From Planctomycetaceae bacterium (GTDB lineage Bacteria; Planctomycetota; Planctomycetia; Pirellulales; Pirellulaceae), in the NCBI GenBank assembly GCA_021298315.1, contig JAJTFC010000013.1, forward strand, positions 1 through 58,846: a stretch of DNA of 58,846 nt. Reading direction: 5' to 3'. Positions 40,081 to 45,937 of the stretch are shown in pieces (positions within the stretch are counted from its first letter, which is position 1; the number at the start of each line of letters is the position of its first letter). Position numbers and translations under genes: made by a program. The notes under the pieces are model-generated. The model was not told the origin of the DNA. It ran no database searches and saw nothing but the letters and a program-made list of their open reading frames with translations.

Positions 40081-43000
40081 TTATGTTTTCACCCAACGAG
40101 CGGCTGCATAACCGACGACACGTGAAGCATCCCCTGTCACTCCCGCGCTGGTGTCGTAACTGAGCTGCTCGATCTTGGTCTGCATTCCCAGTTCCTTGAG
40201 CGTTTGCATGACGAGTGCTGCGGGTACAACGCCACACATACTGATCCCATTGGATTGGCACACATCGAGCAATTGCTTTGGATCCCCAGTGGACAATGCA
40301 TCCAAGGCCAATCGATCTCGACGACGGTTTTCTTGATCCTCCGCAAAGTGATTCATGTCGCTCGATATAGCAAACAGCACTTTTTCAGCGTGAGGTCTAA
40401 TCACATCGGCAAGTTGCTTGGCGGCCAACTGGATCTCGTCCCAGTTAGCATTTCCCATCGCAATACAAACCAGCTTGGGCTTGTTCTGCGCGTCGCCTGT
40501 AAGCCAATCCAAAATCGGCAATTGGATTTCGGCCCCGTGCTCTCGAAAATGGGCCGCCGCATCGAGCTCCATGCCTTGAACACCCTGCGCTATTTGTTGG
40601 CTAAGTTCCGCGTCGATGGTGAAGCTTGCGAATTCCTTTCCGTGGCTCGATGGTATCTGCCAAGCCGATGAGCACGATACAGCCCAGTCTGCACCCAAGC
40701 GGGTATGCTTCGGACCTACGATGATTACCGTTTCAGGGATCCGGCAACTCTTCCAAGCGTCGGTTGCGACTTGACCGCTATAACGAAGTCCGGCATGGGG
40801 TGTCATGATAGCCCTTACATGCTCCGACGAAGTGACAGTCGACTTTTGGTCGAACTCTTCGAGCATCTGCCTGAGTTGTTCCGATTCAGCAGGATAGAAA
40901 GTGCCGGCCAAGGCAGCGCTGCGAGGTCGATCCCTAGAATCGATTCCAGGGGTGTTCGATGCCAAAAGCGAACTTGCCGTCGAGATGCAACCGAGGGTCA
41001 TGACACTGATCGGTTCGCTGCGCAAGCGAACCATCGACGCGGCGGCTTCGAGCAATGCATGCACCGATTTGCTTGGATCGAAAGCGACAGCCACGCGCTG
41101 GCCGCACAACGCCACAACAGCCCTTTGGTTGGACTGAGCACCTGCAAGATCACAATCGTGCAGCACCTCCTTGAGTTTACCTGACTCCCAATCCTCTGCA
41201 TGCACGGTGCCATGATGAGCTGGATCATACAAAGCACTCACGGCCAGATCGATATCGACAGCTTTTTCAAAGCGTGTTCGCCGAAGTGTCTGTTCGGCTG
41301 TACGGCTCAGTTCGAAGATGCTCGATTGCAGGGGAACTCCAGGCCGGAAAGATGTCTGAATCCAGTGCGCCAGGGGAACCTTGGAATCGACATCGACAGC
41401 CGACAAAACAATCGTGTGGACGGTTCCATCCATCGCATCGAGGACATAGTAGTTCGGGGTGGCTCCGTGCGACAAGTTGATCATGTTTTGAACGGTGGCC
41501 GCTTTGAGCTTTTGCAGACTGTCCAAATCACCCGGTGGGCCTTCGATCGGCATCGGCTCGGGTAGTTCGATCGTATTTAGGTGCCCAATAATTTCGAGAC
41601 CTTCGAAAGTCTCTAGCATGACCGAGGGATCTTTCCACGCATCGGTGGGCAAACCGGCTTTACGGCACACACCAGCTAGGTATGCATGGACATCCCAACC
41701 TTGTTCGACTGGAACGCTTGGCAACAGCAGCCCCCCGCGCTGTCCGTAAGGGCTCGTTAGGCTTGTAGTGATTCTCAGTCCATGCTTACCGAGTTGGATA
41801 TGCTCATCCCTTTGATGCGGCTGGGTATCGATGGCAAAAGGATCTGCCAAGAGCGTCACATGGCAGGACAGATAGGGGAGTTCGACACTCGATATGGCGG
41901 GCATGCGCAAGTCTTCTTTTGCAGTCCGCTGGGCGGATTCGACGATCGCATCGCCGAGCCGTGTTGGACGACCTAGAAAGCCGCAGCAACCGCGAAGAGT
42001 TTTACCTCGCTTGAGCGTCGTAAAGCAGCCATAGACATAGTGTTCGGCGAGTTCACCCAGGGGCTCGAAGACCTCTGGCCCGAGCCGCTCCTTGAGAACC
42101 TTGGCAGCGACGATCCTCGCAGCTAGCTTTTGGATCGTTTGCCGGGTGGTGTCATCGATCGAACTAAGGTCCAGAAGGTTGAGTTTTCGGATATTTGGGT
42201 CGCTCATCGAGTTGGCTTCCATACTACCAGGTCTAGGGAGGAGCTCGGCAGGCTTGAGTTTTGCTTGCCCGAGCGAATCTAAAGGTATCACAACTTGGCC
42301 GGGTTGGAACGGACGCATGTCGATTGGAAGCCTTTTACGGCCCCAGGTTCCCACGCTTTGCTCAAATCGCCCAACGAGTTTGGTTCCACAGGAGTTGCAC
42401 GCCCCGTTTTTTAGGTTCACCTGATGGAGCTCGTACCAATCCCTCTCGATGAGCAATTGGCCACAATTGCTGCAATACGTCGAGGCGTGCTTGCTCTCGT
42501 GCACATTCCCGACATAGACGTGCTCTAGGCCATGCGATTTGGCGATCGCGTAAGCTTCCAGTAGCTTCGATACCGGAGTGTTGGGTCGGTCGGTCATTCG
42601 AAAGTCTGGGTGGAATGCGGAGAAATGGATCGGTACATCCGTTCCGAGTTCTTCGGCGATCCACTCGCACATGCGATGAAGTTCGTCGGCCGAATCATTG
42701 GCACTTGGGATAACCAAGTTGGTGATCTCAAACCAAACATCGGTCTGGTGCTTAAGATACCTGAGGGTATCGAGAACCGGTTCGAGGTGCGAATAAGTGA
42801 TCTTGCGATAGAAGTCTTCCGAGAAGGCTTTCAAGTCGACGTTGGCAGCATCCATCCAGCGATAGAACTCTTGCCGTGGTTGGCTCGACATATATCCTGC
42901 CGTCACGGCCACCGTTGCGATGCCGAGCTCTCGACAAGCCTTGGCAGTATCGATCGCGTATTCGGCCCAAACCACCGGATCGTTGTAAGTAAAGGCAACG

Positions 43001-43425
43001 CTGCGGCATTGATAAGTTTTAGCGGCCAGAGCGATCGACTCAGGGGTAGCACGATTGCTGAGTCTTGCAACTTCTTTGGATTTGCTGATGTCCCAGTTTT
43101 GGCAGAACTGGCAACCGAGATTGCAACCTGCGGTACCAAAGGATAGGACGCTGGTTCCCGGGTAGAAATGATTAAGGGGCTTCTTTTCGATCGGATCGAT
43201 ACAAAAGCCGGTGCTTTTGCCGTAGGTATCGAGGATCATCTCCCCATGTTCGATCTTGCGAACAAAGCAAAAGCCTCGATCTTGCTCCTTTAAACGGCAT
43301 TGCCTGGGGCACAGGTCGCAGACGATCCGAGGTTCGGGATCGCTGAGGGTTTGAGGATCGACGTGCCACCATCGACCTGGATATTTCGCAGTGGAGGGAT
43401 TCATACCCAAGTCAGCCTGCGGCAT
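40081..43425 (-). CDS. AmmeMemoRadiSam system fusion: radical SAM + AMMECR1 + unknown domain + Memo
   Basis: One uninterrupted 1114-residue protein. Residues 1-400 are the AmmeMemoRadiSam radical-SAM enzyme: Cys-rich start (CDLCPRQCRL), 4Fe-4S motif GCNLGCQFCQNW (Cys101, 105, 108) and a late zinc ribbon (CSNCG ... CNSCG, 318-346). Residues ~425-625 are AMMECR1 (CFTTLKRGKTLRGCCGFLG; SPYGQRGGLLLPSVPVEQGWD). Residues ~630-820 match no family I recognise. Residues ~835-1112 are Memo (AGTFYPA, MTPHAGLRYSGQVA with His877, GPKHT His907, AISSDMNHF His1026). The three proteins are usually separate neighbouring genes of still unclear chemistry. It follows the squalene-cyclase-like gene by 9 bases. Confidence 0.92.
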   Translation of the reverse strand: MPQADLGMNPSTAKYPGRWWHVDPQTLSDPEPRIVCDLCPRQCRLKEQDRGFCFVRKIEHGEMILDTYGKSTGFCIDPIEKKPLNHFYPGTSVLSFGTAGCNLGCQFCQNWDISKSKEVARLSNRATPESIALAAKTYQCRSVAFTYNDPVVWAEYAIDTAKACRELGIATVAVTAGYMSSQPRQEFYRWMDAANVDLKAFSEDFYRKITYSHLEPVLDTLRYLKHQTDVWFEITNLVIPSANDSADELHRMCEWIAEELGTDVPIHFSAFHPDFRMTDRPNTPVSKLLEAYAIAKSHGLEHVYVGNVHESKHASTYCSNCGQLLIERDWYELHQVNLKNGACNSCGTKLVGRFEQSVGTWGRKRLPIDMRPFQPGQVVIPLDSLGQAKLKPAELLPRPGSMEANSMSDPNIRKLNLLDLSSIDDTTRQTIQKLAARIVAAKVLKERLGPEVFEPLGELAEHYVYGCFTTLKRGKTLRGCCGFLGRPTRLGDAIVESAQRTAKEDLRMPAISSVELPYLSCHVTLLADPFAIDTQPHQRDEHIQLGKHGLRITTSLTSPYGQRGGLLLPSVPVEQGWDVHAYLAGVCRKAGLPTDAWKDPSVMLETFEGLEIIGHLNTIELPEPMPIEGPPGDLDSLQKLKAATVQNMINLSHGATPNYYVLDAMDGTVHTIVLSAVDVDSKVPLAHWIQTSFRPGVPLQSSIFELSRTAEQTLRRTRFEKAVDIDLAVSALYDPAHHGTVHAEDWESGKLKEVLHDCDLAGAQSNQRAVVALCGQRVAVAFDPSKSVHALLEAAASMVRLRSEPISVMTLGCISTASSLLASNTPGIDSRDRPRSAALAGTFYPAESEQLRQMLEEFDQKSTVTSSEHVRAIMTPHAGLRYSGQVATDAWKSCRIPETVIIVGPKHTRLGADWAVSCSSAWQIPSSHGKEFASFTIDAELSQQIAQGVQGMELDAAAHFREHGAEIQLPILDWLTGDAQNKPKLVCIAMGNANWDEIQLAAKQLADVIRPHAEKVLFAISSDMNHFAEDQENRRRDRLALDALSTGDPKQLLDVCQSNGISMCGVVPAALVMQTLKELGMQTKIEQLSYDTSAGVTGDASRVVGYAAARWVKT

Positions 43426-43434
43426 AGCAGTGAC

Positions 43435-45117
43435 TTACAACTGGAATGCATCTTCCTCGGCTTGTTCGTCATACAATGGCATGTAGCGGTAGTAGACCTC
43501 GAGCATCATCGTACACATGCATGTGCTGTAGAGGCGGCCACCTTCACCGATATGAGGATCACCGACAAACCAACTCCCGGCACCGTGGCCGGTTTGAACT
43601 TGGCTACTGACGAGTTGATCTCGCATGCGATTATTCCATGCATCCCATTCAGCGCCGCCATATTGCTTCATGACCTGGGTGCCATAGTAGTTGTAGTAGA
43701 GATTGCCCTCGCTCGGACCATCCTTGGCGAATCGTTCGGCAGCGGATTTGATGGTAGGCTCATCTTTTTTCCAGCCCGAATACATTCGGCACAAGACGCC
43801 ACAAGCGGTCATCGACGGAATGAAATTCAGGGGGTTTTGCTGCTTGCGTATCATGTCGTAGTGATACCCAAAGCCCCCTGGAACCATCATCGTATCGAGA
43901 TAAAAGTTTGCGCGTCGAATGGTGTCGATGTCGTAATTGAGTCCCGACATTGCAGCGCTCTTGATGGCCATCATTTGCCATCCGACCAAGGACGTGTCCC
44001 CGGGCATCTTTGTCTGAATGTAAGGTTCGTAATGCCAACCGCCTGTTTGGGGGTTTTGAGCGGGGGTCAAGTAATTGATGCTCAGTTGGGCAGCTTCGCG
44101 AAGACGCGGATCGCGGGTCATTCCATAGGCCTCGCACATGGCGATCGTGGCGATCCCATGCCCATACATGTTATCGGCCCCGCCTCCGGTCCACCAAGAC
44201 CCATAACCGCCTTGAACCTTCATGCTCTGGATCAAGAAACTTAGCCCTTTGAAAACCGTCTCTTTGTACTCTCCTTCCATGTGCGTTTGGCCGGCACCCA
44301 AAAAGCACATCAAAGCCATGCCAGTGGCAGCGTTCATGCTGGCCGTTTTGTTACCGGGTCGATCGCACTGGCCTCCGCACACAAGCGAATGAGAAAAGGT
44401 CCAAGCCCCCGTCTGAGGATTTTGGTGCTGAGCGAGCCACTTAAGAGCCATCGAAACGGCTCGTTCGGTGTCGGTGGTACCTCCGAATTTCTTAAGCAGA
44501 TCTCGCTTGGTCTCGCTCGAGCGGCTATTGAGACCCGCACGCATGGCCGCATTGCTCTGGGCCGCGATACCCGAAGCAGGCGCAAGCGATTCGCTCAATC
44601 CCGATACCGAAACCGCTGGAGCATCGGCTACCAATGAACTCATATCCAACTCGACCTTGGCATCCACCGCCGATGGTTCGACCGTCGGAACATCCGATGG
44701 ACTATCCTCGGTCGTGTCCGATTGCATCTCTGCAGTCGCATTGTCCATCGAAAATTCTTCGAGGGCATCGGACTCCGTGCCCGCTTGCTCGCCAATATTC
44801 AGCAGCAGATTGATTTCTTTTTTGATCGGTTCGATGTTCCATGCGGCAAGCCCGAGGATGGCTGCAACGTGAATCACGGTGCTGATAAGCCAACTGGGTG
44901 CTGCAGTCCAAAAACCGCTTTTCTTGCGAGGGGCCTCCTGGGACTCCTCTTGCGCCACACCGGGTTCGACGACCGGCGTTGCCAAATCGCTCGGTTTTGC
45001 CAAGTCGCCCGGATTTGCCAAGTTGCTCTTGCCAGAAGGTACCTTTTTCGAGGCCGGAAGCCCGACATCGAACTGGTTTAGATCCTTGCGATCTTTATTC
45101 TCGTCGGAACTCGACAT
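43435..45117 (-). CDS. Membrane-anchored prenyltransferase/squalene-oxidase-like repeat protein
   Basis: 560 residues from ATG 45117. A charged N-terminal region with a short repeat (LANPGD/LAKPSD/LATPVV, 18-bp units at 44981-45030) precedes one membrane helix (WLISTVIHVAAILGLAAWNI). A Ser/Asp/Glu-rich linker (~120-200) follows, then alpha/alpha-barrel repeats of the terpene-cyclase type (ERAVSMALKWLAQHQNPQTGAWTF, GLSFLIQSMKVQGGYGSWW, AQLSINYLTPAQNPQTGGWHYEP). No cyclase DxDD motif was seen, so catalysis is doubtful. Such proteins are common, uncharacterised planctomycete envelope proteins. It is first in the operon with the AmmeMemoRadiSam fusion. Confidence 0.8.
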   Translation of the reverse strand: MSSSDENKDRKDLNQFDVGLPASKKVPSGKSNLANPGDLAKPSDLATPVVEPGVAQEESQEAPRKKSGFWTAAPSWLISTVIHVAAILGLAAWNIEPIKKEINLLLNIGEQAGTESDALEEFSMDNATAEMQSDTTEDSPSDVPTVEPSAVDAKVELDMSSLVADAPAVSVSGLSESLAPASGIAAQSNAAMRAGLNSRSSETKRDLLKKFGGTTDTERAVSMALKWLAQHQNPQTGAWTFSHSLVCGGQCDRPGNKTASMNAATGMALMCFLGAGQTHMEGEYKETVFKGLSFLIQSMKVQGGYGSWWTGGGADNMYGHGIATIAMCEAYGMTRDPRLREAAQLSINYLTPAQNPQTGGWHYEPYIQTKMPGDTSLVGWQMMAIKSAAMSGLNYDIDTIRRANFYLDTMMVPGGFGYHYDMIRKQQNPLNFIPSMTACGVLCRMYSGWKKDEPTIKSAAERFAKDGPSEGNLYYNYYGTQVMKQYGGAEWDAWNNRMRDQLVSSQVQTGHGAGSWFVGDPHIGEGGRLYSTCMCTMMLEVYYRYMPLYDEQAEEDAFQL

Positions 45118-45313
45118 ACGCCACCTAAGGCAAGAGGCTAAGAAAAGGGATTCAAGATGGGAGGTTTGCGGCTTGGATCTTAGACCCAAACCCGCCAATA
45201 TCTTAGCAGTTCTCAAGACCCAGTGTACTCTTTTTCCTGTGCAATTACCCCGCACTAACTTAAAATCGTCCCTCCGGAACTTTTCGAGGATCATCAAAAG
45301 CCACAAGGCCCAC
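45118..45313. promoter_or_regulatory. Divergent promoter region
   Basis: 196 bases between the minus-strand squalene-cyclase-like/AmmeMemoRadiSam operon and the plus-strand DUF2141-OleC-like pair. It must contain promoters for both. No operator symmetry was recognised. Confidence 0.45.
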
Positions 45314-45937
45314 ATGCTAGCGCTGCGTCTATTAAAACCGAGGGAAATCGCACGACTTCCATTGCCTTCAACCCTTCTGCTTACCCTGACGGCATCGCTG
45401 TTTCTAGGCTGCAAGCCCAGCATGCCTGACAGGCAAGTCTCGCCAGGATCCCCTCAAGCAATCCCGCTGGCAGTCCCGCATAAACTACCCGACGAAACGC
45501 ACGAGGAATCTCAATCCCAAAGTGCCCCAATGCCTTCGAGTCGCAAGGCATTGGTCATCGAAGTCCTGGGTTTCGATAGCCAACAGGGACGAGCACGGCT
45601 TGCTCTGTACCGAAGCCCCGAAGGATTTAATCAACCCGAAAAGGCATGGGCCAAAGAGACCCTGGAAATCCCAAACCAAGGGCCTTTGGTCTGGACTCTA
45701 GAGCTCGACGAGGAAGCCTTGAATGATCCTCAAGTGCATTGGGCCGTCTCAGCCCATCACGACAAAAACAGCAATGACAAACTCGATAAGAGCGCTCTTG
45801 GGATACCGACCGAACCGTACGGTTTTTCCAACAATCCAAAACGGGGGTTTGGCCCACCGAAATTTGATGAGGTTTCGTTTTCGATCGACTCAAACGATCC
45901 AAAATCAACTCCCCGGATCGAAATCAAGATCCACTAA
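45314..45937 (+). CDS. DUF2141 lipoprotein
   Basis: 207 residues from ATG 45314; the frame is open far upstream but antisense to the neighbouring gene. The N-terminus (LPSTLLLTLTASLFLGC) ends in a lipobox cysteine, so it is likely lipid-anchored in the envelope. The C-terminal ~125 residues are DUF2141: VIEVLGFDSQQGRARLALYRSPEGF, WAVSAHHDKNSNDKLDKSALGIPTEPYGFSNN and GFGPPKFDEVSFSID. The DKNSNDKLD loop looks calcium-binding. Function unknown. The OleC-like gene starts 6 bases downstream, so the two are cotranscribed. Confidence 0.85.
   Translation: MLALRLLKPREIARLPLPSTLLLTLTASLFLGCKPSMPDRQVSPGSPQAIPLAVPHKLPDETHEESQSQSAPMPSSRKALVIEVLGFDSQQGRARLALYRSPEGFNQPEKAWAKETLEIPNQGPLVWTLELDEEALNDPQVHWAVSAHHDKNSNDKLDKSALGIPTEPYGFSNNPKRGFGPPKFDEVSFSIDSNDPKSTPRIEIKIH

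Follow-up and report, generated by a model that had tools for sequence, protein, structure and literature searches.

What is the fourth part of a single bacterial chain that already joins a radical S-adenosylmethionine (SAM) domain, an AMMECR1 domain and a Memo domain, and how might the four work together? The question is raised by one gene in a stretch of 58,846 nucleotides from a freshwater Planctomycetaceae bacterium (GenBank assembly GCA_021298315.1, contig JAJTFC010000013.1, positions 1 to 58,846; this whole stretch is called the window below). The gene lies on the minus strand as a single open frame of 1114 residues, and the additional segment, termed M here, sits between AMMECR1 and Memo. 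We consider it reasonably likely that the gene encodes an AmmeMemoRadiSam system joined in a single chain, of a type belonging to planctomycetes, in which M is a strongly diverged second AMMECR1-fold domain. The parts of the gene are as follows.

40081..43425, minus strand: fusion gene, 1114 amino acids, radical SAM - AMMECR1 - M - Memo (open reading frame, domain matches, matches in relatives)
42319..43335, minus strand: radical SAM domain, residues 31-369, CX3CX2C at 101-108 (TIGR04337, 585 bits against a cut-off of 220; motif)
42154..42300, minus strand: variable linker, residues 376-424, with Met 402 and Met 407, both in frame, a short way ahead of AMMECR1 (alignment; predicted local distance difference test score, pLDDT, <50 at 376-413; analysis of Met codons and Shine-Dalgarno-like stretches)
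41599..42123, minus strand: AMMECR1 domain, residues 435-609, LRGCCG at 477-482, Val571, Lys589 (PF01871, 119.5 bits against a cut-off of 25; invariant columns)
40936..41592, minus strand: M domain, residues ~612-830, probable diverged AMMECR1-like fold (AlphaFold2 model, pLDDT 87.6; Foldseek matches 1zq7_A and 1vaj; hhalign)
40099..40923, minus strand: Memo domain, residues 835-1109, metal-ligand equivalents H877, H907 and C1064 (TIGR04336, 228.4 bits against a cut-off of 26; alignment to MEMO1 chains)

The open frame fills 40081-43425 exactly, and a search of it for stop codons or frameshifts that would split the domains found none (the plus-strand reading of the same interval holds 16 stops). 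Together with the Pfam and NCBIfam matches, this bears out the preliminary description of the locus, which, without naming a strand, had placed radical SAM, AMMECR1 and Memo in that order in one chain of 1114 residues. The first residues are uncertain, as the frame of a relative (L002) suggests a start near Met 8. The radical SAM domain also resembles glycyl-radical enzyme activases, at a level far under the cut-off (TIGR02493, 59.9 bits against 231.75). The AMMECR1 region passes TIGR00296 (103.7 against 91.05) and falls 0.1 bit short of TIGR04335, the model for AmmeMemoRadiSam protein A (98.9 against 99); it carries the LRGCxG motif as LRGCCG, and the motif of the fused system, LR(G/S/A)CCG, has two adjacent cysteines where LRGCIG is usual. 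The Memo domain passes PF01875 as well (171.4 against 27), and the iron ligands H49, H81 and C244 named for human MEMO1 in PMC11081632 (PDB 7kq8) correspond to its H877, H907 and C1064; unlike MEMO1, it is fused to radical SAM, AMMECR1 and M. All three partners of the AmmeMemoRadiSam system (TIGR04335, TIGR04336, TIGR04337) are thereby present, radical SAM and protein B over their NCBIfam cut-offs. The locus differs from that system in being one chain with a fourth, AMMECR1-like domain, and in narrowly missing the model for protein A.

The preliminary description had drawn attention to a segment of ~190 residues, at 630-820, that matched nothing recognisable. An extra ordered domain of about that size does exist, and no Pfam or NCBIfam family reaches its cut-off there; a new fourth component is not supported. 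From 19 sequences AlphaFold2 gave a confident model of M (pLDDT 87.6; predicted template modelling score, pTM, 0.81), and when this was compared by Foldseek with 350,542 PDB chains the best three matches were all AMMECR1, each with a probability of 1.00 (1zq7_A, E 5.4e-5; 1zq7_B, 8.0e-4; 1vaj, 1.1e-3), followed by a gap to 4aez_E (E 0.041, probability 0.25). In profile comparison by hhalign, M matched a broad AMMECR1 alignment with a score of 31.0 (P 5.3e-4, 150 columns) and a second template with 30.0 (P 8.3e-4), whereas 150 column shuffles per template peaked at 23.2 and 26.9 and the reversed alignment reached 12.7 and 14.9; it took the broad AMMECR1 set to bring out this signal, and M against Memo gave no signal (P 0.095). 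The order of secondary structure elements in AMMECR1 and M, read by eye in the full-length model, is colinear. Because of the Foldseek ranking and the broad-profile match above the shuffles, M is very probably a diverged AMMECR1-fold domain. Residues 435-609 are a plain member of the AMMECR1 family (PF01871; PDB 1vaj, 1zq7, 1wsc) and the M model shares the overall fold, but M differs from the family in matching neither its model nor its motif, LRGCxG being absent from the M alignments. M instead conserves residues of its own (G654, P657, Y659, D666, Q700, H738, G739 and R768).

Fusions of this kind are not confined to one genus. Some part of the fusion was matched in 30 of the 40 genomes searched, the window's own included, and complete four-part frames are present both in the window's genus and in more distant genomes, among them records titled Gimesia and Fuerstiella. 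Of the fetched frames, 60 combine radical SAM, AMMECR1 and M with all or part of Memo. Near-copies and repeats are included in this raw count; after three repeats (L013, L014, L088) were dropped they fell into 21 groups at 80% AMMECR1 identity. In samples drawn from the window's phylum and including its genome, a profile search detected M in 13 of 392 genomes and a search with a single sequence in 6 of 294, whose AMMECR1 count was 153. A single scan with a degenerate M motif beyond these samples returned 18 loci, all in planctomycete metagenome-assembled genomes, a scan that diverged M elsewhere could escape. The segment had been suggested for a search as a stand-alone protein or in other fusions; in every one of the 76 fetched frames that contain M, AMMECR1 is present in the same frame. 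In one relative of the same order (G206, locus L036), radical SAM and AMMECR1-M-Memo are split between two adjacent frames.

Within the genus, parts of the chain have gone missing. Among 27 genomes, the window's included, AMMECR1 and M were each found in 26, Memo in 22 and radical SAM over its cut-off in 20; a radical SAM match over the cut-off is accordingly missing in seven, and Memo is missing at an otherwise conserved locus in four. One genome (G003), counted as scored, has a partial radical SAM only, with no match to AMMECR1, M or Memo. AMMECR1-M-Memo without radical SAM over the cut-off is found in G012, G021 and G008, the last of which keeps a C-terminal radical SAM remnant and was counted as a loss. 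AMMECR1-M alone is found in G009, G013, G017 and G019, which form one clade (support 100/100) and whose loci keep the window's neighbours, namely FlhA, a sulfotransferase and a GDSL lipase on one side and the gene upstream of the fusion on the other. The genomes with losses are drafts, 80-99% complete, and the absences come from whole-genome searches for radical SAM and Memo. Genomes without radical SAM stand on several branches, and judging by the tree radical SAM appears to have been lost three or four times in the genus; a single branch (support 96/82) decides if G012 and the AMMECR1-M-only clade represent one loss or two. The four genes of this clade are nevertheless under purifying selection, with omega of 0.07-0.19 among them. 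Their proteins keep 16 of the 18 near-invariant M columns, share the window's residue at one and differ at one.

The same clade, lacking both radical SAM and Memo, has changed its AMMECR1 domain at particular positions. Thirteen AMMECR1 columns are identical in all 77 of the other AMMECR1 domains compared, near-copies included (G011, whose gene is cut by contig ends, was kept in the tree and left out of this comparison). Ten of the thirteen are unchanged in all four AMMECR1-M-only proteins and three are replaced in all four: Cys480 by Ser, Val571 by Gln or Leu, and Lys589 by Gln. Equivalents of these three residues are present in the PDB chains 1vaj, 1zq7 and 1wsc, and the three genomes that miss radical SAM alone keep them. 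This pattern, which goes back to one evolutionary event, suggests that without Memo there is no need for Cys480 and Lys589.

A further regularity concerns the junction between radical SAM and AMMECR1. When representatives were grouped by BLAST identity in AMMECR1 (<80% or <70% identical), a Met 6-16 residues ahead of the AMMECR1 start was found in 14 of 21 at the 80% grouping, against ~14% expected from linker Met elsewhere, and a Shine-Dalgarno-like stretch of at least four bases preceded 10 of these 14; among the remaining internal Met it preceded 50 of 436. At the 70% grouping the junction Met was present in 10 of 16, with such a stretch before 7 of 10 against 39 of 336. The corresponding P values (4e-8 and 6e-7 at 80%, 2e-5 and 4e-5 at 70%) are too small, because the interval was set with the alignment already in view and the sequences share ancestry. 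In radical-SAM-less frames the junction Met is the first ATG in G021, where AAGGAGG stands five bases ahead of it, and in G012, G009 and G013, but not in G008, G017 or G019; GTG or TTG codons lie upstream of it in all of these frames except G013. An in-frame start at the junction may yield a second product without radical SAM (AMMECR1-M-Memo) from the fusion gene. The fixed 1:1:1 stoichiometry first ascribed to the fusion is weakened accordingly: the partners do share one chain, but relatives encode AMMECR1-M-Memo or AMMECR1-M alone, and many fusions keep the junction Met with a Shine-Dalgarno-like stretch, the window's own lacking a strong one.

How the parts would cooperate can be proposed in outline, the division of labour being inference throughout. 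M, which lacks the cysteine motif, has conserved residues of its own and accompanies a true AMMECR1 domain, would form with that domain a pseudo-dimer serving as a substrate-binding core. The radical SAM domain, with its 4Fe-4S cluster and SAM, would act on a target held by this core. Memo, whose His/His/Cys site resembles the iron site of MEMO1, would carry out a redox step with Cys480 and Lys589 of AMMECR1, a partnership proposed because of their joint loss. Radical SAM would then be a detachable activator or modifier, lost in several relatives and perhaps bypassed by the junction start. A bolder version, which we hold to be unlikely, places the reaction that AMMECR1 shares with Memo and radical SAM at the family-invariant residues Cys480 (LRGC) and Lys589 (C.KAGL), which might carry a protein or thiyl radical generated by the glycyl-radical-activase-like radical SAM domain. 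M would then be AMMECR1's pseudoenzyme twin, and the proteins reduced to AMMECR1-M would be natural pseudoenzymes left with the binding function only.

Other accounts of M have to be considered. It might be a new domain and a fourth component, either the substrate carrier that the preliminary description had offered or an unrelated enzyme; its lack of any assignment over a Pfam or NCBIfam cut-off, its own conserved set from G654 to R768 and its modest structural likeness to AMMECR1 all fit. Yet the three top PDB matches are AMMECR1, the profile match beats every shuffle, AMMECR1 shares its frame in 76 of 76 cases, and none of the invariant positions in the M alignment is a Ser, Lys or Cys fit to serve as an attachment site (Cys 758, 774 and 813 are not in invariant columns), so that we regard this account as quite improbable and the carrier specifically as rejected. 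More specific candidates fared no better. Matches to a biotin carboxylase C-terminal domain (E 0.22 in the window scan, 0.03 in the 19-sequence scan) and to LapD/MoxY (best E 0.013, 6 of 19 members) are weak and unsupported by the fold search, and Mad2/HORMA folds matched the model at E 0.04 and worse, with probabilities of at most 0.25. A plain linker is ruled out by the confident fold and the conserved residues. Slightly more credible than a new domain, and still improbable, is an AMMECR1 duplicate that has decayed and serves no purpose, or a spacer. The motif is gone, and between the window and mapped frames of the same genus M varies more than radical SAM does (~44-81% against 71-79% identity). 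Omega for M is nonetheless 0.04-0.19 across the 15 pairs compared, similar to AMMECR1, M is retained where radical SAM and Memo are lost, and its polar residues are conserved across families. The first M alignment left out L013, L014, L015, L016 and L019 as repeats or cut copies. Between a plain linker and a second AMMECR1 half, the two outcomes foreseen as fatal to a novel component, it is roughly the latter that emerged.

The proposed roles of Cys480 and Lys589 and of the junction face rivals that carry more weight. Cys480, Val571 and Lys589 might have drifted in a little-used protein and say nothing of an active site: the partners are gone, constraint may simply have relaxed, and Gly591 (the same in 76 of 77 elsewhere) is also replaced in two of the four proteins. 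Relaxation appears selective, however, because the ten other invariant columns are unchanged and omega stays at ~0.07-0.19, and relaxation, too, would single out residues whose need depends on the partners; drift is thus a less likely explanation, though one to be taken seriously. Closer to an even chance is that the junction Met is a non-working relic, left from the start codon of AMMECR1-M-Memo when this was still a gene of its own, as the separate frames of G206 would suggest. Retention of this Met within a hypervariable linker, with Shine-Dalgarno-like stretches far above those of control Met, speaks for a working start. The relic account also draws on facts that weigh against the one-chain system as we read it, namely that Met 402 and Met 407 of the window lack a strong Shine-Dalgarno stretch and that 7 of the 21 representatives lack a junction Met, in addition to the post hoc interval and the relatedness already mentioned. 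To these must be added that the joint change of the three AMMECR1 residues is a single event in one clade of four genomes; that M superposes only modestly on AMMECR1 structures (TM score 0.37-0.53, root-mean-square deviation 5.4-8.4 Å); that hhalign of M against a narrower AMMECR1 profile of the genus and near relatives gave no signal (P 0.31); and that PF01871 is absent among the families listed at E <=10 for the 19 M sequences, in a scan whose filters drop most weak matches. On the physical channeling first read into the fusion, a full-length model was made, as had been proposed, but with a pLDDT of 78.7, a pTM of 0.57 and a poorly modelled radical SAM part it yields no trustworthy domain packing and does not settle channeling.

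Several neighbouring and related loci deserve mention.

43435..45423, minus strand: upstream gene, weak match to the C-terminal part of squalene-hopene cyclase (26.7 bits against a cut-off of 26.1), separated from the fusion gene by a 9-nt gap
L034 3199-6828, plus strand, and L035 2891-4132, minus strand: radical SAM loci without AMMECR1
L046, L052, L053, L057, L059, L061, L062, L063, L067: Memo-AMMECR1 with an adjoining AMMECR1 frame

The upstream gene remains adjacent to the locus in all four relatives reduced to AMMECR1-M, as well as in L003/L071, and a 31% relative lies near the split genes of L036. In G034 and G035, of the same order, the radical SAM domain is 60-65% identical to the window's and no AMMECR1 match was found; that of G034 closes an open frame of 1210 amino acids whose first ~850 residues have no Pfam family over the cut-off. 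One genome bin (G006) holds two different four-part copies on separate contigs (L002, L039), and in three loci of genus members (L022, L023, L024) the linker between radical SAM and AMMECR1 is ~66-73 residues longer than the window's. Paired AMMECR1 domains recur in planctomycetes through Memo-AMMECR1 neighbours: the nine listed loci, of 30 mapped, likewise have two AMMECR1 domains per locus, the second in an adjoining frame. They differ in that Memo precedes AMMECR1, M was not found there, and the second copy reads LRGC(I/L)G in eight of the nine.

A one-chain fusion with a hidden AMMECR1-like domain and a loss series was not described in the literature that was searched, most subscription journals lying outside it. 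Burroughs et al. 2019, reportedly in J Biol Chem, may already describe such fusions. The three-partner system is already known; the one-chain form with an AMMECR1-like M and its loss series appear undescribed in the papers searched.

AMMECR1 and MEMO1 are human proteins, and AMMECR1 is linked to a developmental disorder. Here a bacterial chain unites homologues of both with a radical SAM domain, and the relatives that have shed parts of it amount to a natural deletion series. Passages in the literature mention "recently-described Memo-Ammecr1 systems", citing Burroughs et al. 2019 (PMC7159879), and call the molecular functions of AMMECR1 (PMC5502304) and MEMO1 (PMC11081632) unknown. To that problem the deletion series brings two named residues, a minimal core, and constructs whose partners come ready paired.

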